A stretch of DNA of 64,000 nucleotides, taken from positions 1 through 64,000 of the forward strand of contig JAFSTC010000093.1 of NCBI GenBank assembly GCA_017450705.1, in the 5' to 3' direction. The position numbers were made by a program, and so were the translations under genes. The notes under the pieces are model-generated. The model was not told the origin of the DNA. It saw nothing but the letters and a program-made list of their open reading frames with translations, and ran no database searches. Source of the stretch: Lentisphaeria bacterium. Its GTDB lineage: Bacteria > Verrucomicrobiota > Lentisphaeria > Victivallales > Victivallaceae. Positions 8,064 to 55,055 of the stretch are shown one piece after another. Every line of letters begins with the position of its first letter. Within the stretch, counting starts at the first letter, position 1.

Positions 8064-9191
8064 GTGGAACGCGTCGTAAAAAAAATGCAGGTGTACGGTC
8101 TCCTGAAAGAGCGGATCGGCAGCGGATACTATCCGCCGGGCGGCCGGCTTCCGCGAGAGGTCGAACTTGCCGCAGAGCTGAAAGTGGCCCGCATCACGCT
8201 GCGTTCCGCGCTGGAGCTGCTGGAGATGGAAAAACTGATCAGTCGGGTGAAGGGACAGGGCACCTTCGTGCGGAACGAAAAAGACGCTCAGACCCGGATC
8301 CTGACGATCATCGACAGGGACGATCCCCGCCGGACAGACAGGGCGAGCAATCCTTTTCTCTATATCCTGCCCTGTATCCGGCTGGCGGCGGAGCGGATGA
8401 ATGTCGTTCTGGAGATCTGCGATCCCCAGTCCCTGGAGACGGCTCCGCCGGAGCAGTGTGCCGCCCGGATCCGTTCGCGCGGCGTTCAGGGCATTTTCTG
8501 GTTGGGGAACAATTTCACCGGCCGGGAACCGTTGCTGGAAACGGTGCGGAGGACCGGACTCCCGGTGCTGCTGCCCCACGCGGTTTGTTCCGACGCGGAA
8601 GTCACCGGCTTCACCGTCATGGGGACCGATTACCGGGAGCTGACCCGCGACGGGTTAAAATACTTCGCGGCGCAGGGTCACAGAAGAGTGGCTTACATCG
8701 GGGGGCGCGGCATGCACGGCATGGCTCCGTCGGACTATCTCGCCGACGTTCGGGCCCTCTGTCTGGATCCCGCGCCGGAACTGCTGAAACTGATCGAGTG
8801 GCGGGACGGGAAGGAGATCGTTTTCGATGCCGTCGCCTCCCTGATGGCTCTGCCGGAGCCGCCCACGGCCGTCATCAGTTACTCCGACTACCTGTCTTTG
8901 CAGATCTACGAGTATCTGCACGAAAAGAATTTCCGGATCCCCGAGGACGTCTGTGTCTTGACGATCGGCGGTCAGATCGGCTGCGACTTTCTGGATCCGC
9001 CCCTGAGCGCGCTGGAATACATGGACTCCGAGATCGGAGAGGCTGCGGTGAAGACGATGCTGGAAATGATCCGCGGCCGCAGCCGGCTCAGATTCATCGT
9101 GACGCCCCATCGGCTTCGCGTCCGAGAAAGTACGGAGAGAGTTTTACTTCGCCACAGCAAATCCAAAACCCGAAAGGAGAAACGAAAATGA
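8064..9191 (+). CDS. GntR/LacI-type transcriptional regulator (AraR-like architecture)
   Basis: 375 aa. Residues about 8-75 are a GntR-type winged helix ([20 protein letters not shown], then GQGTFVRN). Residues about 90-355 form a LacI-type sugar-binding domain ([44 protein letters not shown]). This chimera is the AraR layout, in which a sugar ligand releases DNA. The start is GTG 8064 or ATG 8085; neither has a clear Shine-Dalgarno sequence, and I list the longer form. The stop overlaps the prepilin start as ATGA, so the regulator leads its own target operon and probably controls it autogenously. The ligand is unknown; a product of the GH9 enzyme is the obvious guess. Confidence 0.85.
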
Positions 9192-9955
9192 AAAACGATG
9201 CGCGAAAATTCACCTTGATAGAACTTCTTGTGGTGATCGCCATCATCGCGATCCTCGCCGCCATGCTGATGCCCGCGCTGCAGCAGGCTCGGGCCCGCGG
9301 CCGCACCATTTCCTGCGTCAACAATCTCAAGCAGATCGGCGGCTATCTCGGCAGTTACGCCAACGATTACGACGATTATCAGATCTGCTTCAACATGAAT
9401 TACATCAACGGCAACTTCGCCGCGCTCATCACCTCTTCCGGCGGATTCGCCTGCGGTACGGACGGTTTCACGACCCGGTGGCACAACGTGCTGGCCTGGC
9501 GGGGATACTGCGGCAAGAAACCGCGGGCCGGGATGGGTGAAAACGAATTTTTCTGTACGGAGACCCTCGGCGTGAACAGGCCGCCCCAGTACCGCTGGTC
9601 GTGGGGCTACGTGTACGGGATCTCCTACGGGACGTACAAGGAAAAGTGGAACTCCAGCGAAAACGTCCTGGCAAAGTTGCAGAACTGGCGCATGCCTTCC
9701 AAGTCGATCTACGCCGCCGATTCCGGCCAGCTGGACGGACTGCCCGCGGTGGAGATGAATTCCGGGCTGAGCAAGTCTTCCACCACGAAGACCTCGACGG
9801 GCATGGCGTGGCCGCGTCACAACGCTTCCTGCAACGTCTTGTGGGCGGATCTCCACGTGGGATCGGTGCTGTCGACCAGCGGCACGGCCGCCGGGCTCTA
9901 CGCCGACGGGTCGCCGCTGGAAGGGAATCTCAAAGGCGTCTGGAACCGTAAATGA
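9188..9955 (+). CDS. Prepilin-type N-terminal domain protein, cluster 1
   Basis: 255 aa. After a short basic leader the type II/IV prepilin motif [16 protein letters not shown] follows, with the conserved Glu at position +5 of the mature protein. A prepilin peptidase would be expected to cleave before Phe; none is in the window. The remaining 220 residues form a Gly/aromatic-rich globular domain like those of the large DUF1559/H-X9-DG type II secretion-like families of PVC bacteria. Near the C-terminus [13 protein letters not shown] shows the spaced motif shared with the two other prepilins here. AAAGGAGA precedes the start. Both ends overlap neighbouring genes by 4 bp (regulator and GH9), so all three are translationally coupled. 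Confidence 0.88.
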
Positions 9956-27907: not shown

Positions 27908-29032
27908 CTATTTCAGTTCCTTTGAGAGTTTTTCGATGACGAGGAAATGCTTTTTCACCATTCCCGCAAGAGCCTTGCTCTTGCCCGTGAGCAACTCCTC
28001 GGCCCGGGCCGCCTCGGCCGCCGCGAGTCCCGGACGGCCGCAGTAGTGGAGGAGCCGCGCGTAGGACAAGTGGGCGAACCCTTCCTCCCGGGCGTCCTTG
28101 AACTTCGGGGAAGAGGCCGCCGTCTTCGCAAGGAGAAGCGCCCCCTCGGGGCACATGTTTGCGATGGGCGTGTTCATCTCCCGGGAGACCTGGGCCATGA
28201 GCAGCGCGGGCTTGTCCCGGAATTTTTCGGCCATGGTCCGGAAGACCGGCAGAACGGGCCGCTCCGGAGCCGCCTGCCGCTGGAAACGCAGTTTGAAGTC
28301 GTACAGCGCGAAAGCCGAGGGATCCGCCGCGATGGCCCGGTCGATCTCCCGGAAGGCGGCATCCGCATCCTTGAGCCGGCGCCACAGGAGATTGCATTTG
28401 AGCCCGACCAGCTCCGCGTTGGCCGGCTCGAACTTCTGCTCTTTTCCGATGGCCTCGACCGCCTCGCGGTATTTCCGGGCCTTGAGCAGACCGTCCAGTT
28501 CCACCGTGAACTTCTCCCGCCGGGAGGCATCGGCGATCCGGTACTTTCCCGACGCCATTTCACCGAGCAGAACGGGCAGCTGCTCGAATTTGCCGCGCCA
28601 CGCAAGCTCGCCTTTGGCCGTGATGACCGCGGCGAAGGGGATCCTTTCGAACTTGCCGCTCAGCAGGCCGAAAAGATCCGACTTGAGGTCGAACATCACC
28701 GGGATGGAGACATCCTTCCACGCGGGCACATCGCCGGGATTTTTGGGGAGCCCCGGAGAGGAAAAGAAAACGCCGATCCCCTGCTTCCGCAGATTTTCGG
28801 CCGTCTTCACGACCCGGCCGAGCGTCAGCACATCCGGGACGGCGGGCGTGATGAAGAGCACCGCCATGGTCTTTTTACCGAGCCACTGCTCCACGGGAGC
28901 CGGGACATTCCTGTACCAGACGCCGACGGGGAACTTCTCCACCCGGTCCCCGATGGCCAGAGGCGCCGAAAAGCACGTGCCCGGCAGCAGGATCAATGCC
29001 GCGATGACCGCAGCTGGAAACACCCTTTTCAT
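27908..29032 (-). CDS. Exported thioredoxin-fold protein with helical C-terminal half
   Basis: 374 aa. Signal peptide 1-22. Residues about 25-165 look like a redoxin-type domain (KKTMAVLFITPAVPDVLTLG, ERIPFAAVITAKGELAW with the cis-Pro-like IPFAAV), but the usual CxxC is absent, so a redox role is doubtful. Residues 170-374 are helical, TPR-like (AVEAIGKEQKFEPANAELVG, ARLLHYCGRPGLAAAEAARA). It overlaps the murB-ddl stop by 4 bp (ATGA), so it is coupled to it. Function unknown. Confidence 0.65.
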   Translation of the reverse strand: MKRVFPAAVIAALILLPGTCFSAPLAIGDRVEKFPVGVWYRNVPAPVEQWLGKKTMAVLFITPAVPDVLTLGRVVKTAENLRKQGIGVFFSSPGLPKNPGDVPAWKDVSIPVMFDLKSDLFGLLSGKFERIPFAAVITAKGELAWRGKFEQLPVLLGEMASGKYRIADASRREKFTVELDGLLKARKYREAVEAIGKEQKFEPANAELVGLKCNLLWRRLKDADAAFREIDRAIAADPSAFALYDFKLRFQRQAAPERPVLPVFRTMAEKFRDKPALLMAQVSREMNTPIANMCPEGALLLAKTAASSPKFKDAREEGFAHLSYARLLHYCGRPGLAAAEAARAEELLTGKSKALAGMVKKHFLVIEKLSKELK

Positions 29033-31101
29033 CTCTTCCCCACAGCCTTGAGAAACGTGAAAATGCCCTCCGCCAGAACCATCAGCACCGCGGCCAGGAT
29101 CAGAGGCCAGCCGGGCAGACCGGTGAAGAGGGCGACGAGACCGCTGGTCGCGAGGACCAGCGCGCAGAGGACCAGTGCCAGCCGGAACAGCCAGGTGCAG
29201 ACACAGGCGAGGCGTCCGGTCAGGACCTCGCCGCCGGATGCCTCCCGCACCTGGAAGACCGGGCGGCGCATGGCGGAATACACCATGCCGGCCGTCAGCG
29301 CCTCGAAGGAAACGCCCCGCACCCGGGCGGCCTTCGGCACGAGACTGGTGGCGGTGCAGCCGGGCAGCGCATTGCCTTCGAGGATGAAGGGCGTCCCGTC
29401 TTCCGCCACGATGAAATCCACCCGCACCAGATCGCGGCAGCCGGTGACGAAATAGAAGGCCTCGGCCAGCTTCTTCGCCCGCTCGATCTCCTCCGGTTTC
29501 AGGGATTCGGGAGGGCAGAAGTACTGGGTGTGACCGTTTTTGTAAATGTATTTCGCATCGTAGTCGTAGAACCCGCTGGGACTGCGGATCTCGATGGCGT
29601 CGTAGGCGATCCCGCCGATGACGGGGATGGAGATCTCGATCCCCCTGATGAAGGATTCGACGAGAAGCTCGTCGGCCAGCTTGAACTCGCTCTCCAGCGC
29701 CTTGGGCCAGTCCTCGCGGCTATCCACCTTGACGATGCCCACGGTGGAGCCCTCGCAGGGGACCTTGAGGATCAGCGGCAGCCCCAGCTCCTCGGGGAAA
29801 TCGCAGTTGTCCCGGGTGACGATCCGCCAGGGGGCCGTGGGCATTTTGGTCTTGTCCATCAGGCGCTTCGTAACGATCTTATCCATGACCGCCGCGCAGG
29901 CCGCCGAGCCGGAACAGGCGAAACGCAGTCCCGCCCTCTCCATCAGCTTCTGGATGCGGCCGTCCTCGCCGAATCCGCCGTGGAGCACGGGGTAGATCAC
30001 GTCGCAGCGCCGCATGGAGGGCGTGATCCGGCAGCGGGTCACGTCGGTCAGCTCCACGTCGAACCCGCCGTTGCGCAGGGCATCGGCCACCGCGGCTCCG
30101 CTGCGCAGGGAGACCTCGCGTTCGCTGCTGACGCCGCCGCAGAGCACGTTGACCTTGATGGCGGGCACTTCGCGGTACAGCGTCTCCTCGAACTCCGGAT
30201 CGATCGGTATCTGCTCCAGCTTGAGGAAAAAGCCGCTGCGGTCGCTCACGGCGCGGCGGATGAACACCAGGAGCCGCAGGTAATCCGCCGCCATGGTCTC
30301 GCCGGAAAGGTTGACCATGTAATTGGCGTGCTTGTCGCTGATCTGCATATCTTCGCAGCGCAGACCCTTGAGACCGCACTGGTCGATGAGCTTGCCGGCG
30401 GGGTCCGTGCTTGAAACGTTGCGGAAGGCGCACCCGGCGGTGCGGCCTCTCGGCTCCCGTTCCCGCCGGGCGGCCAGCACCTCGGAAATGATGCGGCGCT
30501 CTTCCTCCGGCGTGGAGGGCGCGAGCTTGAACACGACGGAGGTGACCACGGCGCCGTCGGGGACCGGCCCCCGGCGGTACACCCACTTCAGGGCCTCGCC
30601 CTCGAGAGCCAGCGGACGGCCGTCGGCGGTGAACCCGTAGATGCCGGTGACGGCAGTGCCGGTCTCGACGCCGTTGGCGCCGGCGTTCATCCGGGCGGCG
30701 CCGCCGACGGTCCCCGGGATCCCGGCCAGACCGGAAACGCCCGCGAATCCGGCGGCGGCGGCGGCGGAAACCAGTTCCGACAGCTGGAGTTTCGCGCCGC
30801 AGGTGAAGACGCCGTCGCGGTTCTCCAGACGGCTGAACTCCTCCCCGGCCAGCCGGATGCCCAGCCCCCGGTAGGGCAGATCCATGCCGATGACGTTGCT
30901 GCCGGAACCGAAGACGAAGTAAGGCGTCCGGGTCCTGTGGACGAAACGGAGCAGTTTTTCAAGCTGTTTAGCCGATTCCGGTTCGGCGAGGAGCGGCAGA
31001 GTCGTCCCCACGCCGAGGGTGGTCAGCTCCTTGTACGACACGTTTTCGCGCAGCCGGATGCCCGGAACGGCGGATGCCACGGCACTTTTAAGATCGCCCA
31101 T
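29029..31101 (-). CDS. MurB-Ddl fusion with C-terminal membrane segment
   Basis: 690 aa. Residues 1-300 are UDP-N-acetylenolpyruvoylglucosamine reductase (MurB): FAD-binding FGSGSNVIGMDL, GLAGIPGTVGGAARMNAGAN, and GCAFRNVSS at the catalytic Ser/Cys loop. Residues about 316-630 are D-alanine-D-alanine ligase: NVLCGGVSSEREVSLRSG, LHGGFGEDGRIQ, LKVPCEGSTVGIVKV, RVDFIVAEDGTPFILEGN and LPGCTATSLVPKAA. Residues about 630-690 add two hydrophobic helices. Both activities feed peptidoglycan precursor synthesis, the second and third committed branches meeting at MurC-MurF. Fusions of Mur enzymes with Ddl are known (MurC-Ddl in chlamydiae); a MurB-Ddl fusion with a membrane tail is less familiar to me. 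Coupled to the thioredoxin-fold gene. Confidence 0.92.
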   Translation of the reverse strand: MGDLKSAVASAVPGIRLRENVSYKELTTLGVGTTLPLLAEPESAKQLEKLLRFVHRTRTPYFVFGSGSNVIGMDLPYRGLGIRLAGEEFSRLENRDGVFTCGAKLQLSELVSAAAAAGFAGVSGLAGIPGTVGGAARMNAGANGVETGTAVTGIYGFTADGRPLALEGEALKWVYRRGPVPDGAVVTSVVFKLAPSTPEEERRIISEVLAARREREPRGRTAGCAFRNVSSTDPAGKLIDQCGLKGLRCEDMQISDKHANYMVNLSGETMAADYLRLLVFIRRAVSDRSGFFLKLEQIPIDPEFEETLYREVPAIKVNVLCGGVSSEREVSLRSGAAVADALRNGGFDVELTDVTRCRITPSMRRCDVIYPVLHGGFGEDGRIQKLMERAGLRFACSGSAACAAVMDKIVTKRLMDKTKMPTAPWRIVTRDNCDFPEELGLPLILKVPCEGSTVGIVKVDSREDWPKALESEFKLADELLVESFIRGIEISIPVIGGIAYDAIEIRSPSGFYDYDAKYIYKNGHTQYFCPPESLKPEEIERAKKLAEAFYFVTGCRDLVRVDFIVAEDGTPFILEGNALPGCTATSLVPKAARVRGVSFEALTAGMVYSAMRRPVFQVREASGGEVLTGRLACVCTWLFRLALVLCALVLATSGLVALFTGLPGWPLILAAVLMVLAEGIFTFLKAVGKR

Positions 31102-31104
31102 GAT

Positions 31105-31266
31105 TTACTTTTCCCTCCTGTCCCCGCAATCCCGCCGGGGTTCGAATACGATGTCCGCGCCGGGACCGACGAAACCGTCGCAGCCGGCGTGTGTTAAGAA
31201 ACGATCGACACGGCACGCCGCGGCGGCGGCTTCAACCGCCGTCCGGCCGAAAACAAGCTCGCTCAT
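31105..31266 (-). pseudogene. Truncated SpoU-type rRNA methyltransferase N-domain relic
   Basis: 53 codons. The start MSELVFGRTAVEAAAAACRV resembles the substrate-binding N-domain of RlmB/TrmH 2'-O-ribose methyltransferases (usual form: VxGRxAVxEAL). The SAM-binding knot domain of about 150 aa is missing; the frame ends 3 nt before murB-ddl. GGAGGAG lies about 9 nt upstream of the ATG, so the short peptide may still be translated. It could instead be an unrelated small protein; the family resemblance is short. Confidence 0.5.
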
Positions 31267-31693: not shown

Positions 31694-32302
31694 TTACGAC
31701 GCCCGTTTCTCCGCCTTGCTCTTGGCGATCTTGCTCCGGGCCACGGAGCTTGTGTTCATATCGCCGAGGTAAATGCCGATCTTGCGGATGTTCTCGCGGC
31801 ACTCCGGGATCTTGACTTTTTCGAAGAGATTGACCCGCTGACTGGTGGTCCGCAGTTCCGCGGAAAGCAGTTCGTACTGCTCCTGCAGGACGCGCCGGGC
31901 TTCCCGCAGAGAGGCCGCGCTCTTCAGGGCCGCCACCGCGTCGTCGACGTACCAGTCGGTGGTCATGAGATCGATATTCCCGGGCTCGAACTCCACGTGG
32001 TCGAAGGTGGGGATATTGATCCCCGCGATGTTCGCCGTCCCGGTGACGACCTCTTTGACGACAACGTTGGAGGCAACGGCCTCGGACACCGCTCCGTCAC
32101 CGAAAAAGGCGATGCAGACGGCCAGCTCCTTCTCCAGCTTCTCCTGCTCCCGGAGATTCTCCTCCAGCGCCTCGGCGCTCTGGCGCACCTCCATCTGGAG
32201 CTGCTGCTTCTTGAGCTGGAGCGTCGGCAGGAAGCGCTCGAACTGTTTCTTGTTGTCCTGCTGTTTTTTCAGCTCGGTCTTGGTGAATTTGATCTTGGCC
32301 AT
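31694..32302 (-). CDS. atpD: V-type ATP synthase subunit D
   Basis: 202 aa. The N-terminus KIKFTKTELKKQQDNKKQFE and long antiparallel helices (LPTLQLKKQQLQMEVRQSAE) are typical of the D subunit, the central rotor axle. It lies 2 nt after subunit B. Its downstream neighbour is a GNAT gene, not subunits I and K. Confidence 0.92.
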   Translation of the reverse strand: MAKIKFTKTELKKQQDNKKQFERFLPTLQLKKQQLQMEVRQSAEALEENLREQEKLEKELAVCIAFFGDGAVSEAVASNVVVKEVVTGTANIAGINIPTFDHVEFEPGNIDLMTTDWYVDDAVAALKSAASLREARRVLQEQYELLSAELRTTSQRVNLFEKVKIPECRENIRKIGIYLGDMNTSSVARSKIAKSKAEKRAS

Positions 32303-32304
32303 GA

Positions 32305-33600
32305 TCAGTTCCCGGGCCAGTACTGGTCAAGCAGATCGGTCTTGATGCCGACCTCGGTCTTGTCGAAACAGTCGGCGAGGATCTTCCACCCCAGATCCAG
32401 CCCGGTCTCCAGCGGGATGTTGACCGAAAGGGACATCATCTCCTCCTCGAAGCGGGCGCCGTACTTCAGCAGCTTGCTGTCCCACGCGGACATCTTGAAC
32501 CCCATGGACTTCTTTTCGAGGGTGCTCTTGTATTCGGCGTAGAGACGGATCATGGCGTCCATGATGGCCCGGTGGTCGGGCCGGGTCTTGCCGTTCACCT
32601 GCTGTTTGAGACGCGAGAGCGAACCGAAGGGCTCGATGCGTCCGTTGCGCAGATAGAACTGCCCCTCGGTGATGTAGCCCGTGTTGTCCGGCACGGGGTG
32701 GGTGACGTCATCGCCGGGCATGGTGGTCACGGCGAGGATGGTGATGGAACCCGCGCCGTCGAAGTCCACCGCCTTCTCGTAGCGGGAGGCCAGCTGGCTG
32801 TACAGATCCCCGGGATAACCGCGGTTGGAGGGGATCTGCTCCATGGTGATGGAGATCTCCTTGAGGGCGTCCGCGAAGTTCGTCATGTCGGTGAGCAGAC
32901 AGAGAACGCGCTTGCCCCGCAGCGCGTAGGCCTCGGCCACGGCGAGGGAGAGGTCGGGGACCATCAGGCACTCCACCACGGGATCCGCGGCGGTGTGGAT
33001 GAACATCACCGTGCGGGAGAGCGCCCCCCGTTCGTCGAGGGTGCGGCGGAAGATGAGATAATCGTCGTACTTCATGCCCATGCCGCCCAGCACGATCACG
33101 TCCACCTCGGCCTGCAGGGCGATGCGGGCCAGAAGCTCGTTGTAAGGCTCGCCCGCCACGGAGAAGATGGGCAGTTTCTGGGATTCCACCAGCGTATTGA
33201 AGAGGTCGATCATGGGGATGTTCGTCCGGATCATGTTCCGGGGGATGACGCGCTTGGCCGGGTTGACCGACGGCGTGCCGATCTCAACGAGTTCGCTGGT
33301 GACGTCGGGCCGTCCGTCCCGGGGAACGCCCCGGCCGTTGAAAACCCTTCCCAGCAGATCGTCGGAGCCGGAGACCTGCATCTCGTGCCCGAGGAAACGC
33401 ACCTGATCGCCGGTGCTGATGCCCCGGCTGCCGGCGAAGACCTGGAGCGAAACGGACTTCCCGTTGAGGCGGATCACCTGAGCCAGGGAGACGCCCCGGG
33501 AGCTTTCCACCTCGGCCAGTTCGTTGTAGGCCACATCGTCGGCCTCCACGGTGATGACGTTGCCCGCGATGTGACTGATTTTGTGATAGACCTTGCGCAT
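32305..33600 (-). CDS. atpB: V-type ATP synthase subunit B
   Basis: 431 aa, the non-catalytic nucleotide-binding-fold subunit of the V1 head. The P-loop position reads [18 protein letters not shown], which lacks a Walker A Lys, as expected for [38 protein letters not shown] and [17 protein letters not shown] are conserved blocks. The start overlaps the subunit A stop as TAATG. Confidence 0.95.
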
Positions 33601-35345
33601 TATTTCACCTCCGCGGCGGCGCCGGCGAGTTTGCTGTCGATGGCCTGTTCCTGCACCTTGAAGGCCTCGCTCTTCCACGCGATGTAGTTCCAGTCGAGGA
33701 AGAGCTGGCGCAGTTCGAGGAACCAGCGCCGCGCCGTCTCCTTGTCGGCGAAGGAAAAGGAGCTCTCCAGAACGCCGCAGACCTTGTCGAACACGTAGCA
33801 CTGCCGGTCGGCGCACGTGCTGGCGTCCACGGGATCGAAGGTGTTCTGCTGCAGAAACACGTAATCGAGAAATTCACTTTTGAGATAGATGATGTAGTCG
33901 TCGGTGCTGGTCCCCTCTTCGCCGATGACCTTCATCATCTGGTTGACCTCGCTGCCCCGGGCGAGGACGCGCCGGGCGAGAGCGAGTTTTCCGGGCTCGA
34001 CGAGACTCTTGTACTTGCTCCAGCTCTCCAGCGGGTGGATGGCCGGGTACCGGCGGGCGTCGGAGCGCTCGCGGGAGAGACCGAGGAACGCGCCCACGAC
34101 CTTGAGGGTGGCCTGGGTCACCGGCTCCTCGAAGTTGCCGCCGGCGGGACTGACCGCGCCGCCGATGGTGACCGAACCCGTCTCTCCCGTGCGCAGCCGG
34201 ACGAGACCGGCCCGCTCGTAGAAGTCGGAGATGCGGGATTCCAGATAGGCCGGGAAGGACTCCTCCCCGGGGATCTCCTCCAGACGGCCGGACATCTCGC
34301 GGAGGGCCTGCGCCCAGCGCGAGGTGGAGTCGGCCAGCAGCAGGGTGTTGAGCCCCATCTGCCGGTAGTATTCCGCCAGCGTCACGGCGGTGTAGACGCT
34401 GGCCTCCCGGGCCGCCACCGGCATGGAACTGGTGTTGCAGATGATGATGGAGCGGTCCATGAGGGAACGCCCCGTGCGGGGGTCTTCGAGCTCCGGATAC
34501 TCCCGCAGGATCTCCACCACCTCGCCCGCGCGTTCGCCGCAGGCGGCCACCACCACCACGTCGGCCTCGGCGTAGCGGCTGAGGGAGTGCTGGAGCACGG
34601 TCTTGCCCGCGCCGAAGGGCCCGGGGGTGCAGAACGTGCCGCCCACCGCCACGGGGAAGAAGGTGTCGATGGTCCGCATCTGGGTGACCATGGTCCGCTC
34701 GGGCAGCAGTTTCTCTTCGTAGTCCGAAATGGGGATCTTCACCGGCCAGAACTGGGTCATGGTGACGCTGCGTTTCGTTCCCTGCTCGTCCACGGCCACG
34801 GCCATCACGTCGTCGACGGTGTAGTCCCCCTCGGCGGCGACGGACTCCAGACGCCACGACCCCGGCCACGAGAAGGGGATCATGATGCAGTGCTTGACGA
34901 TGCCCTCGGGCACGCTGCCGATGCGGTCGCCGGCCTTCACGACGGCCCCGGCTTCGGCGCCGGGGGTGAAGTGCCACCGTTTTTTCCGGTCCAGCGCCTG
35001 CAGATAGACGCCGCGCTTGAGGAAGAAGCCGGAGTGCTCCGCCAGCAGTTTGAGGGGGTTCTGCAGACCGTCGTAGACCTGCGTCAGGAGTCCCGGCCCC
35101 AGCTCGACGGAGAGCAGTTCGCCGGTGAACTCCACCTCGTCGCCGACCTTGAGACCGTTGGTGCTCTCGAACACCTGCAGATCGGCCACGTCGCCGCGCA
35201 CGCGGATGACTTCGGATTTGAGCCGGGCGCCGCCGACAAGGGCGTAGGCCACCTCGTTCTGCATGACACGGCTGGAGTATTTCACGGTGACGAGGTTGCC
35301 GTTGACGCCGACGACCTTCTCTTTGGCGGTGGGAGATTCTGTCAT
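33600..35345 (-). CDS. atpA: V-type ATP synthase catalytic subunit A
   Basis: 581 aa. It hydrolyses or makes ATP in the V1 head. Walker [16 protein letters not shown] is at about residues 240-254, and Walker B-like and arginine-finger regions follow ([20 protein letters not shown]). The non-homologous insertion typical of V-type A subunits is present ([19 protein letters not shown]). ATG 35345 overlaps the DUF2764 stop as ATGA. Upstream in-frame extension belongs to the preceding gene. Confidence 0.96.
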
Positions 35346-35899
35346 GATAAGGTTAAAGACTCCTTTGCAGCTTTGTCCGCGGCGCCGGAGATCCGTTCCA
35401 GCGCGGCTGAGAAATTGACTGTTCCGGCCTCCTTTTGGAAGTCGTTGTATTTGTTGATGATGACAAGCTTCGTTCGGTAGATGCACAGGGCGTCGAAATC
35501 GAAGTCGTGCCCCAGGGCCAGCTCGTCGAGCCTCGCCCAGCGCAGCCGGTCGACGAGGAACTCCCGCTCGAGGGGGTTCGCGCACGACGACGCCTGGGAG
35601 AGGCCGTAGTCGACTTCACCGAAATACACTTCGGGATCCGGCGGGGAGAAGGAAATGCCCGCCCGCTCGGCCCGCTTCTGCGCGATGCGGGTACGCAGAT
35701 AGGTCTCGAAGACCGCCATTTCCCGGTACACCCGGCAGGTGGCGGGGAACGCCCCTCCCCCGGCGTAGGCCTGGATCGCCCGCAGCCGGGACTCGGGGAG
35801 CGTCTCCGCAAGCATCTCGTCCAGCGCGGCCGTCGTCAGAGGCGCGGCGCCGCCGATCTCGAGATGGGGAAGTGACGCGACGAGGAAGTAATACTGCAT
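35342..35899 (-). CDS. DUF2764 protein of the V-ATPase operon
   Basis: 185 aa, soluble and mostly helical, starting MQYYFLVASLPHLEIGG. DUF2764 proteins occupy the place between subunits E and A in V-ATPase operons of chlamydiae and relatives, and may act as a C-like stalk subunit. No catalytic motif is seen. It lies 5 nt after subunit E and overlaps subunit A by 4 bp. Confidence 0.8.
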   Translation of the reverse strand: MQYYFLVASLPHLEIGGAAPLTTAALDEMLAETLPESRLRAIQAYAGGGAFPATCRVYREMAVFETYLRTRIAQKRAERAGISFSPPDPEVYFGEVDYGLSQASSCANPLEREFLVDRLRWARLDELALGHDFDFDALCIYRTKLVIINKYNDFQKEAGTVNFSAALERISGAADKAAKESLTLS

Positions 35900-35904
35900 G
35901 AAAG

Positions 35905-36507
35905 CTACCTGTTTTCCAGAATGCGGGCCAGTTTCTCCCCGGCGTAGGCGCCGACGAGTCCCGTGATCGCCTCCTCGGAGAAGTCGAAGAAGACATCGTT
36001 CCCGCTGAAGCTCACCTGGAGACCGCTCTTGACGGAGCTGTCGGCCAGGACCTGCGGCTCGGCCTTGAAACTTGCGCCGAGGGTGTCTTTGACGGCCGCG
36101 GCAAGGGCCTCGGCGTCGCGGGAGGAGGCGAGAACGGTGATCTGCACACCGGGATCCTTCGCAAAATCCGCCGCCATGGTGCGGATGAGTTCGGCCATGA
36201 ACGCGGGGGTCATGGCCTCCTTGACGGAGGAGGAGACCGCCCGGCGGAGCCGGGTTTCCAGCTCGGCCTTGAGTTTCAGGACGATGTCCCTCGCCGACTG
36301 CCGGATGGTGTTTTCGGCGCGGGTCTGCAGGGACGCCGCCTCGGCCGCCGCGGCGGCGCCGATCTCTTTGGCCTTGCTTTCGGCCGCTGCGACGATCTCC
36401 CCGGCCTCGGCGCGGGCCTTTTTCAGAATTTCCTCCCGCTCCGCCTCGGCCTTTTCGATCCCGTCGGCGCGGATCTTTTCCAGAAGACTCTGCAGTTCTT
36501 CAGCCAT
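35905..36507 (-). CDS. atpE: V-type ATP synthase subunit E
   Basis: 200 aa from ATG 36507 (MAEELQSLLEK), chosen because GGAG lies 6 nt upstream; ATG 36519 would add four residues. The N-terminal half is an Ala/Glu/Lys-rich coiled coil (KAEAEREEILKKARAEAGEI), the peripheral stalk; the C-terminal domain ends in FDFSEEAITGLVGAYAGEKL. It heads the operon behind the promoter 36592-36620. Confidence 0.9.
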   Translation of the reverse strand: MAEELQSLLEKIRADGIEKAEAEREEILKKARAEAGEIVAAAESKAKEIGAAAAAEAASLQTRAENTIRQSARDIVLKLKAELETRLRRAVSSSVKEAMTPAFMAELIRTMAADFAKDPGVQITVLASSRDAEALAAAVKDTLGASFKAEPQVLADSSVKSGLQVSFSGNDVFFDFSEEAITGLVGAYAGEKLARILENR

Positions 36508-36591
36508 GTCCCACTCCATTTCTTTGCCCGGTGAGCGCCGTTTTCCGGCCCCGTTCCGGATTCCTGTTGTCCCGATTTTTACAATCGCAAT

Positions 36592-43131: not shown

Positions 43132-43944
43132 ATGAAAAAATCAAATCACCCCCGTACCCCCGTCGCGGCAAAACGCCGCGGGAAGTTCACGTTGATTGAA
43201 CTTCTTGTCGTCATCGCCATCATCGCCATTCTGGCGGCGATGCTGATGCCCGCGTTGCAGCAGGCCCGGGAGGCCGGTTACAGCGCTTCCTGCGCCAACA
43301 ACGTGAAACAGTGCGGGATGTTCCTGCAGGGCTACCGGGGAGACTACAACGATTACATCTACGCTCCGAAGTCCAACAACAGCAACAAAAATGTGGAAGA
43401 CGACCCCTCGCGCATCGTCTCGTGGTGCCAGATGCTTTACAACAAGAAATACTTCAACAAGCGGGCGGACGTGAGATGCCCCAAAAACCTGATCCACCAA
43501 GTCTCCAAAGCGGCGGACGATCTTTACTGGGCACAATCCACGCTGGGCATGTTCTTTGCCGAAAACGGGCCCTACGTCCCCATGAACGGGGGAGCTGTCA
43601 GAAAATACGCATTCGGGAGCGTCAACCTCTCCAATCTCTCGCCGTCACAGCTCTTTCTGCTCGGGGACAGCCGGGATACGGTCATGAAGGGGCAGGCCTC
43701 GTGCATCAACGCCAGCAACAGCACGAGCACCGTCCAAAGCGAGTACGGTCCCTGCCGGCTCTATATGGCGCACAGGGAGGCCGCCAACATGCTGATGGGG
43801 GACGGACACGCCTCGAAGATCACCCAGCACAGCGGGAGAGTCCCCTACCCCGCCATGTACGGAGCCGACCGGGTCTGCCGCCCGGTGGTCAGGATACTGC
43901 TCCCCGGCAGTGATTCCCACGTTGCCCGCGAGCCGTACAACTGA
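43132..43944 (+). CDS. Prepilin-type N-terminal domain protein, cluster 2
   Basis: 270 aa. A basic leader of 19 residues ends in Gly-Lys before [16 protein letters not shown]. Cleavage and methylation by a prepilin peptidase are expected; no such gene is in the window. The globular part ([17 protein letters not shown]) contains the motif [13 protein letters not shown], identical in spacing to the two other prepilins. CAGGAGGG precedes the ATG. It lies between two secreted-protein genes in the large glycan unit. Confidence 0.87.
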
Positions 43945-54196: not shown

Positions 54197-54225
54197 TTGA
54201 AAAAGGGCGGGGGGAATGCTATCTT
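54197..54225 (+). promoter_or_regulatory. Promoter of the third prepilin/DUF4838 unit
   Basis: TTGAAA (54197-54202), 17-bp spacer, TATCTT (54220-54225), 56 nt before the prepilin ATG. It marks a separate transcription start within the region. Confidence 0.7.
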
Positions 54226-54281
54226 ATCGCGGTCGTAAATTTTGCGTCAACAGGGAAATCCCGACAAAAAAGGAGGTCGTC

Positions 54282-55055
54282 ATGTCACGTTTCACAGCAT
54301 CCGCGGACACGCAAGGATCCAACCGGAAAGAGAGCCGGGCTTTCACGCTCATCGAGCTGCTGGTCGTCATCGCCATCATCGCCATTTTGGCCGCCATGCT
54401 CATGCCCGCTTTGCAGCAGGCGCGGGAGCGGGGCCGCGCCGCCAGCTGTCTCAACAACCTCAAACAGCTGGGACTCAACGCGTTCATGTACATCGACGCC
54501 TCCGACGGGACCCATTATCTCCACGACAGCAACGGCCAGTGGGCCGGGTGGTTCATCAACAAGGGCATCTTCACCAAGAAACCCGACTTCGTGGCCTGCC
54601 CCACGATCCCGCCGGGCAAGTTCACCACCACGAGCACGCTCAACAACGCCTACAACACCTACACCTGCCGCGTGCGCAACAACATTCCCGGCGGCATCGG
54701 CTACATCCAGTCCAATACGGACTTCCTGCTGGCCACCAAGCGCATCGCCTATCCCGTGAAATTCATGATCTTCGCGGACTCGGTCGGCACCGCCAGCCGC
54801 ATGCAGAACTCCTGGTCCTTCATCCACACCAGTTCCACCATCACCTCCGGCGTCTACATGGCCCACGGCGGCTCGGCCAACATGGTCTTCCTCGACGGCC
54901 ACGCGGGCTCTCTGCGCAACTGGCACGAGTGCTACTCCACCTGGTTCGCCGAATACGGCAAAAACGGTTCCGCCTCGGAACGGGGCGGGTTCACGTTCCA
55001 CTACATCGACCCGAATTTCTCCGCCGTGCGCTTCAACGGCGGCGGTCTCAAGTAG
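54282..55055 (+). CDS. Prepilin-type N-terminal domain protein, cluster 3
   Basis: 257 aa from ATG 54282 (AAGGAGG just upstream). A leader of about 20 residues precedes [16 protein letters not shown], as in the two other prepilins. The C-terminal domain contains [13 protein letters not shown], the shared spaced motif, and ends in an aromatic/Gly-rich tail. The gene leads its own unit and is followed 21 nt later by a secreted DUF4838 protein. Confidence 0.88.

Follow-up and report, generated by a model that had tools for sequence, protein, structure and literature searches.

A MurB-Ddl fusion with a predicted C-terminal membrane hairpin in the Lentisphaeria order Victivallales

A gut bacterium of the class Lentisphaeria encodes MurB and Ddl in a single open reading frame that ends in two strongly hydrophobic helices. 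The product is probably a cytoplasmic enzyme that catalyses two steps of peptidoglycan precursor synthesis and is tethered to the inner membrane through a hairpin that it has captured. The gene lies on the minus strand at 29029..31101 of the 64,000-nucleotide stretch of DNA analysed here (the window); it starts with ATG and encodes 690 amino acids plus stop. A Shine-Dalgarno-like AGGAGG, read directly, is found upstream of the ATG (31114..31119, minus strand). Genes resembling V/A-type ATPase subunits, judged by eye, lie upstream of the fusion (31694-36519, minus strand). Three plus-strand genes (9188-9955, 43132-43944 and 54216-55055) encode proteins with a prepilin-like FTLIELLV near the N-terminus, also noted by eye.

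The two enzymatic halves

Pfam recognises domains of both enzymes in the one reading frame, and relatives share the architecture, so the fusion put forward in the original prediction is real. The MurB half (about residues 16-296; 30214..31056, minus strand) contains FAD_binding_4 (PF01565, residues 38-162) and MurB_C (PF02873, 205-296). A short junction (about residues 297-315; 30157..30213, minus strand) leads into the Ddl half (about residues 315-611; 29269..30156, minus strand), an ATP-grasp D-Ala-D-Ala ligase with Dala_Dala_lig_N at 362-396 and Dala_Dala_lig_C at 415-607. All four domains score above the curated cut-offs. In NCBIfam, the Ddl part passes the subfamily model NF002378 (287.7 bits against a cut-off of 243); the MurB part scores 208 bits with NF010480 and 116 bits with TIGR00179, both below cut-offs set for whole-protein equivalogs. 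The window protein has no Pfam match to Mur_ligase and therefore has neither the chlamydial MurC-Ddl nor the MurB/C layout. AlphaFold2, given 36 sequences, produced a model with mean pLDDT 92.4 and pTM 0.84. In it the MurB and Ddl domains are followed by a low-confidence stretch (622-628) and by long helices at 629-659 and 665-689. Foldseek matched the model best to the Ddl structure 4c5a (TMt 0.89), with the MurB structure 9dtk at rank 46 (TMt 0.88).

The motifs of both families are present; the roles given to the residues are those commonly assigned to them. An alignment to 67 further MurB rows shows that the MurB half retains the family motifs: the GSN loop for FAD, IPGTVGGAARMNAG, YR, AGCAF and the C-terminal Glu, which lies in FLKLEQ and aligns with that of other MurBs. 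We take the catalytic set of MurB to be a Ser or Cys proton donor, an Arg and this Glu. The proton-donor position is a Cys (TAGCAFRNV), where E. coli MurB presumably has Ser. In the Ddl half, all seven blocks inspected are kept, with ER, HGGFGEDG, EGST, FYDYDAKY, RVD and LEGN among the motifs. The Tyr of the YDY motif is, we assume, that of the D-Ala type, the D-lactate type having Phe.

The Cys, together with the faster evolution of the MurB half relative to the Ddl half, could suggest that one of the two halves, most likely that of MurB, has degenerated, that only the other activity counts, and that the missing step comes from an undetected enzyme. Two genomes of the order (G022 and G037) that have Mur ligases and transpeptidases yet no MurB_C match would fit such a replacement. 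We consider this improbable, because most Lentisphaeria rows have the same Cys, as does the crystallised MurB 2gqt (presumably that of T. caldophilus), which likewise reads AGCAF; every other MurB motif is kept, and dN/dS is about 0.16. On the sequence evidence, the prediction that the fusion has both MurB and Ddl activity is well supported: the MurB half would reduce UDP-GlcNAc-enolpyruvate to UDP-MurNAc, and the Ddl half would join two D-alanines. The two reactions share no intermediate, and their products meet only later, at MurF; the likeliest effect of the fusion is therefore to keep the two activities in one place and in constant proportion, and not to channel a common intermediate.

The fusion halves are also the only copies found in the genome (3.97 Mb in 117 contigs, 97.4% complete). 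The single MurB_C match is that of the fusion, and among six Dala_Dala_lig_C matches only that of the fusion is strong (138.5 bits); the other ATP-grasp reading frames begin like what we take to be CarB, AccC and PurT, labels given by reading and not by a scan. At this level of completeness, neither a second MurB_C protein nor a second true Ddl was found, and the separate murB and ddl genes that the original prediction had named as evidence against it did not appear. The likely MurC is a separate 413-residue reading frame on contig C37 (L220), MurD, MurE and MurF (named by reading) are encoded elsewhere, and an FtsQ-type POTRA protein is encoded on contig C17, so that the genes of the dcw cluster are scattered over the genome.

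A reading frame on contig C1 (L167, 257 bits with TIGR01082, below cut-off) was considered as the MurC of this genome and rejected, as it falls in a separate clade. It (L167:6415-7812) and its homologues (L170-L198) form a second MurC/Mpl-like ligase family distinct from MurC (clade support 100/100, 11 rows), and members of this clade co-occur with fused MurC in genomes that have the triple fusion described below. A search with the L167 ligase matched 37 of 37 genomes, some of the matches being MurC itself. The label Mpl for this clade is a guess.

Distribution and origin of the fusion

The fusion was used to search 288 genomes of the phylum, 75 of which belong to the order of the window, here called Victivallales because related records bear the name Victivallaceae. 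Matches were obtained in 72 of the 75, and in 69 they spanned both halves. From these 69, 53 loci were fetched (one of them, L036, cut by a contig end), and both domains lie in one reading frame in every one. This is the outcome of the search for the same domain order that the original prediction called for, and it bears on whether the reading frame is a frameshift or assembly artefact, or a chance readthrough of adjoining genes. The assembly is fragmented and MAG-like, and murB adjoins ddl in many bacteria, both of which could produce such a frame. Against this, 53 of 53 loci from separate assemblies have the same architecture, which argues that there is no assembly error; the MurB-Ddl junction is conserved and the tail is under constraint. 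None of these 53 loci shows a split into separate reading frames, and the artefact reading, whose probability we regard as negligible, is refuted.

Among the six remaining genomes of the order, three gave only partial or weak matches (G241, G037 and G040) and three gave none (G022, G126 and G211). In G040, MurB_C lies on a protein of its own and there is no strong Ddl; G037 lacks both; and G022, with no MurB_C match, has another Ddl-like match. G022 and G037 are an estimated 97% and 95% complete, respectively, and keep their Mur ligases and transpeptidases; either a contig is missing or an enzyme not recognised as such has taken the place of MurB.

Outside Lentisphaeria, 72 loci fetched with the fusion protein were examined. 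MurB and Ddl are adjacent reading frames in 40 of the 41 that hold both. As the query was the joint protein, the set over-represents loci with adjacent genes. The remaining locus, L052:7905-9713 from a Methylococcaceae MAG, holds a MurB-Ddl fusion of 603 amino acids that appears to be independent. The original prediction had described the partners as coming from different branches of the pathway. This is right biochemically; genomically it is not, as the genes are neighbours in those 40 loci, and the pairing is explained by fusion of neighbours.

Two sister orders carry a larger protein, MurC-MurB-Ddl, as a single reading frame at 13 loci (1021-1115 residues; L118-L122 and L200-L207). It occurs in five of six genomes of the first order (1021-1030 residues) and in eight of 47 of the second (1052-1115 residues). 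In one case (L122) Pfam sees MurC and Ddl and not MurB. In the 12 with a detectable MurB, the MurB-Ddl junction is colinear with that of the Victivallales doubles: a brief segment is similar in both and follows the pattern ...PEV.F.....PP.V.VLKGG.SSERE. The MurC-MurB junction is likewise colinear across the triples of both orders. These triple fusions are arguably more striking than the window protein. Four other fetched genomes of the second order (L208-L211) encode MurC-MurB with Ddl absent from that reading frame, and in the fetched members of family f9 MurC and MurB are both free and the Ddl is a different one. Elsewhere in the class, in another family (G046, L137:4151-6385), murC is followed directly by ddl with no murB between them. 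In G275 (L134:4690-8259) MurB-Ddl is joined to a 578-residue hydrophobic C-terminal region for which Pfam gave no family (best TgpA_N, E 8.5). Among ten verrucomicrobial loci from outside the class, eight have fused MurC-MurB followed by a separate ddl; at the other two (L126 and L153) the MurB/Ddl search found Ddl alone. The MurC-MurB arrangement with a separate ddl is described for relatives of V. spinosum (PMC4803751).

In the MurB tree, a 100/100 branch separates the Lentisphaeria rows from those of Verrucomicrobia and other bacteria. One clade (98/95) comprises the Ddl halves of 31 doubles and 12 triples, and another (100/100) all Lentisphaeria MurC rows, whether free or fused. Within the latter, 12 of 13 free Victivallales MurCs adjoin the MurC domains of the triples from the first sister order (90/84). 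As far as phylogeny goes, the trees are compatible with a single ancestral MurB-Ddl fusion, which would have arisen when two adjacent genes of the dcw cluster were joined in some ancestral member of Lentisphaeria. One family counts against a simple history: the MurB halves of f2 (L128, L129, L131, L147, L149 and L151) group with the free MurBs of f9 (100/99), whereas their Ddl halves stay with Victivallales. One half of the fused gene may have been replaced in this family. A hand count on the MurC tree gave about the same number of changes for an ancestral triple from which MurC split off as for two separate fusions of MurC; the colinear MurC-MurB junction in the triples of both orders favours a single origin. 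A tentative reconstruction, which we would not yet favour, is that MurC-MurB-Ddl was ancestral to Lentisphaeria, that MurC split off, and that the clade of the window then captured a membrane micro-protein that tethered the precursor enzyme to the membrane. If so, the proteins of the cell-wall pathway in this phylum were split and fused again several times, always along the ancestral order murC-murB-ddl.

The C-terminal tail

The tail that follows the Ddl match (29032..29256, minus strand) is 75 residues long and consists of a disordered linker and a predicted transmembrane hairpin. Two 17-residue windows have mean hydropathies of 2.60 and 2.41 and are separated by an 8-residue loop; together with the AlphaFold2 helices, these bear out the strongly hydrophobic, two-helix C-terminus that had been noted. 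The tail is fused to MurB-Ddl in 25 of the 28 rows of one clade (99/97; genera g1 and g2). It is absent from the other three (G034, G067 and G109), a distribution that requires two loss events. All 25 fused tails have two hydrophobic segments, with a net positive flank on the N side in 23 and on the C side in 23, which predicts that both ends of the hairpin are inside. The tail of the window protein itself combines hydrophobic helices with positive flanks, as expected of a membrane protein.

MurB-Ddl has no tail in two genomes of sister genus g4 and in one of sister genus g11. In these three (G238, G019 and G173) a separate 70-residue reading frame with two predicted helices overlaps the MurB-Ddl stop by ATGA, and an exported protein is encoded downstream of it. 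When a profile HMM built from the 25 fused tails was run against 26,931 reading frames from other loci, the separate frames were the top three hits (L033, L030 and L037), with E values of 3e-12, 6e-12 and 1e-6; the next hit had an E value of 0.026. Profile comparison thus shows the fused tail to be homologous to the separate two-helix gene. Loci L013 and L036 lack the hairpin, and there the stop of MurB-Ddl directly overlaps the ATG of the next gene. In the window, the next gene (27908..29032, minus strand) overlaps the fusion stop by four bases (ATGA). Its product has a signal-peptide-like N-terminus and no Pfam family at E 0.01; similar exported proteins occupy the slot downstream of MurB-Ddl in several relatives.

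Tail sequences diverge strongly. The nearest relative (L038, a Lentisphaeria MAG from sheep colon) has 71% identity. Compared with it, the helices have dN 0.22 and dS 1.54 (57 codons; dS is near saturation) and the linker has dN 0.83 (20 codons). By this codon comparison the helices evolve under constraint. Pfam gave no family for the tail, and an origin in a known small membrane family was rejected, as DUF6343 (E 0.058) and others fell below the cut-offs. The gene for FtsQ is the usual neighbour of ddl, and the tail was also considered as an FtsQ remnant. This was rejected, the POTRA domain being in the separate gene on contig C17 and the tail having no Pfam match.

The hairpin was originally proposed to act as a membrane anchor. 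This is plausible given its form and the positive flanks of most tails, but anchoring must be dispensable, since the tail is absent in three of the 28 clade members. Nor does the enzyme need the hairpin, which is confined to one clade, is lost there in those three, and is a separate gene in two sister genera. The separate 70-residue proteins with their ATGA overlap suggest that the hairpin may have a role of its own. It could be a small binding partner of some other membrane protein, perhaps with a regulatory effect on the supply of precursors, and fusion to the bifunctional enzyme would merely keep it close. We regard this as the less likely explanation: the hairpin matches no family, and its sequence varies while its hydrophobicity is conserved, which suits an anchor. 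In the anchoring model that we prefer, a two-helix membrane micro-gene just downstream of MurB-Ddl would have been joined in frame in the clade of the window, and the N-in/C-in hairpin would keep both enzymatic halves close to the inner membrane, the site of action of MraY and MurG.

Comparison with known Mur fusions

A natural MurB-Ddl with a hairpin bears on the question whether the cytoplasmic Mur enzymes, which as a rule are soluble, work in a complex at the membrane. Relatives in which the hairpin is fused, separate or missing provide a ready-made comparison set. Our literature search, which covered mostly journals outside subscription, turned up neither MurB-Ddl nor MurC-MurB-Ddl, nor a membrane hairpin attached to one of them. 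Fusions of Mur enzymes as such are already known, as MurC-Ddl, MurB/C and MurE-MurF.

The chlamydial MurC-Ddl fusion was reportedly described by McCoy and Maurelli in 2005, and we know of no membrane tail on it. Like the window protein, it joins two cytoplasmic precursor enzymes with Ddl at the C-terminus, in PVC bacteria; its partner is MurC, whereas that of the window protein is MurB. The NCBIfam model for MurC-Ddl (NF011171) matches the window protein over the Ddl part only. The Chlamydia fusion is cited in PMC4803751 and PMC12283558. MurB/C of V. spinosum (MurC-MurB) comes from the same phylum and also joins MurB to a neighbouring dcw enzyme. According to PMC4803751, it complements E. coli murB and murC; its MurB activity could not be demonstrated in vitro despite the complementation of murB in vivo, a point against the predicted bifunctionality of the window protein. 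Unlike in the window protein, MurB follows MurC in the polypeptide and ddl is a separate gene, and verrucomicrobial and Lentisphaeria MurBs form separate clades in the MurB tree. Bordetella has a MurE-MurF fusion (PMC6420597); to our knowledge, it bears no transmembrane hairpin. It resembles the window protein in joining adjacent Mur enzymes of the dcw cluster, but the enzymes differ.

The closest counterparts are the MurC-MurB-Ddl proteins of the sister orders, which share with the window protein a colinear MurB-Ddl junction and sister Ddl halves. They differ in carrying MurC in front, and the five whose tails were listed have no membrane tail. Such fusions present two or three antibiotic targets on a single polypeptide. 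With MurC-MurB, MurB-Ddl and MurC-MurB-Ddl in one phylum, one ancestral gene order appears to have been made into proteins in several ways.
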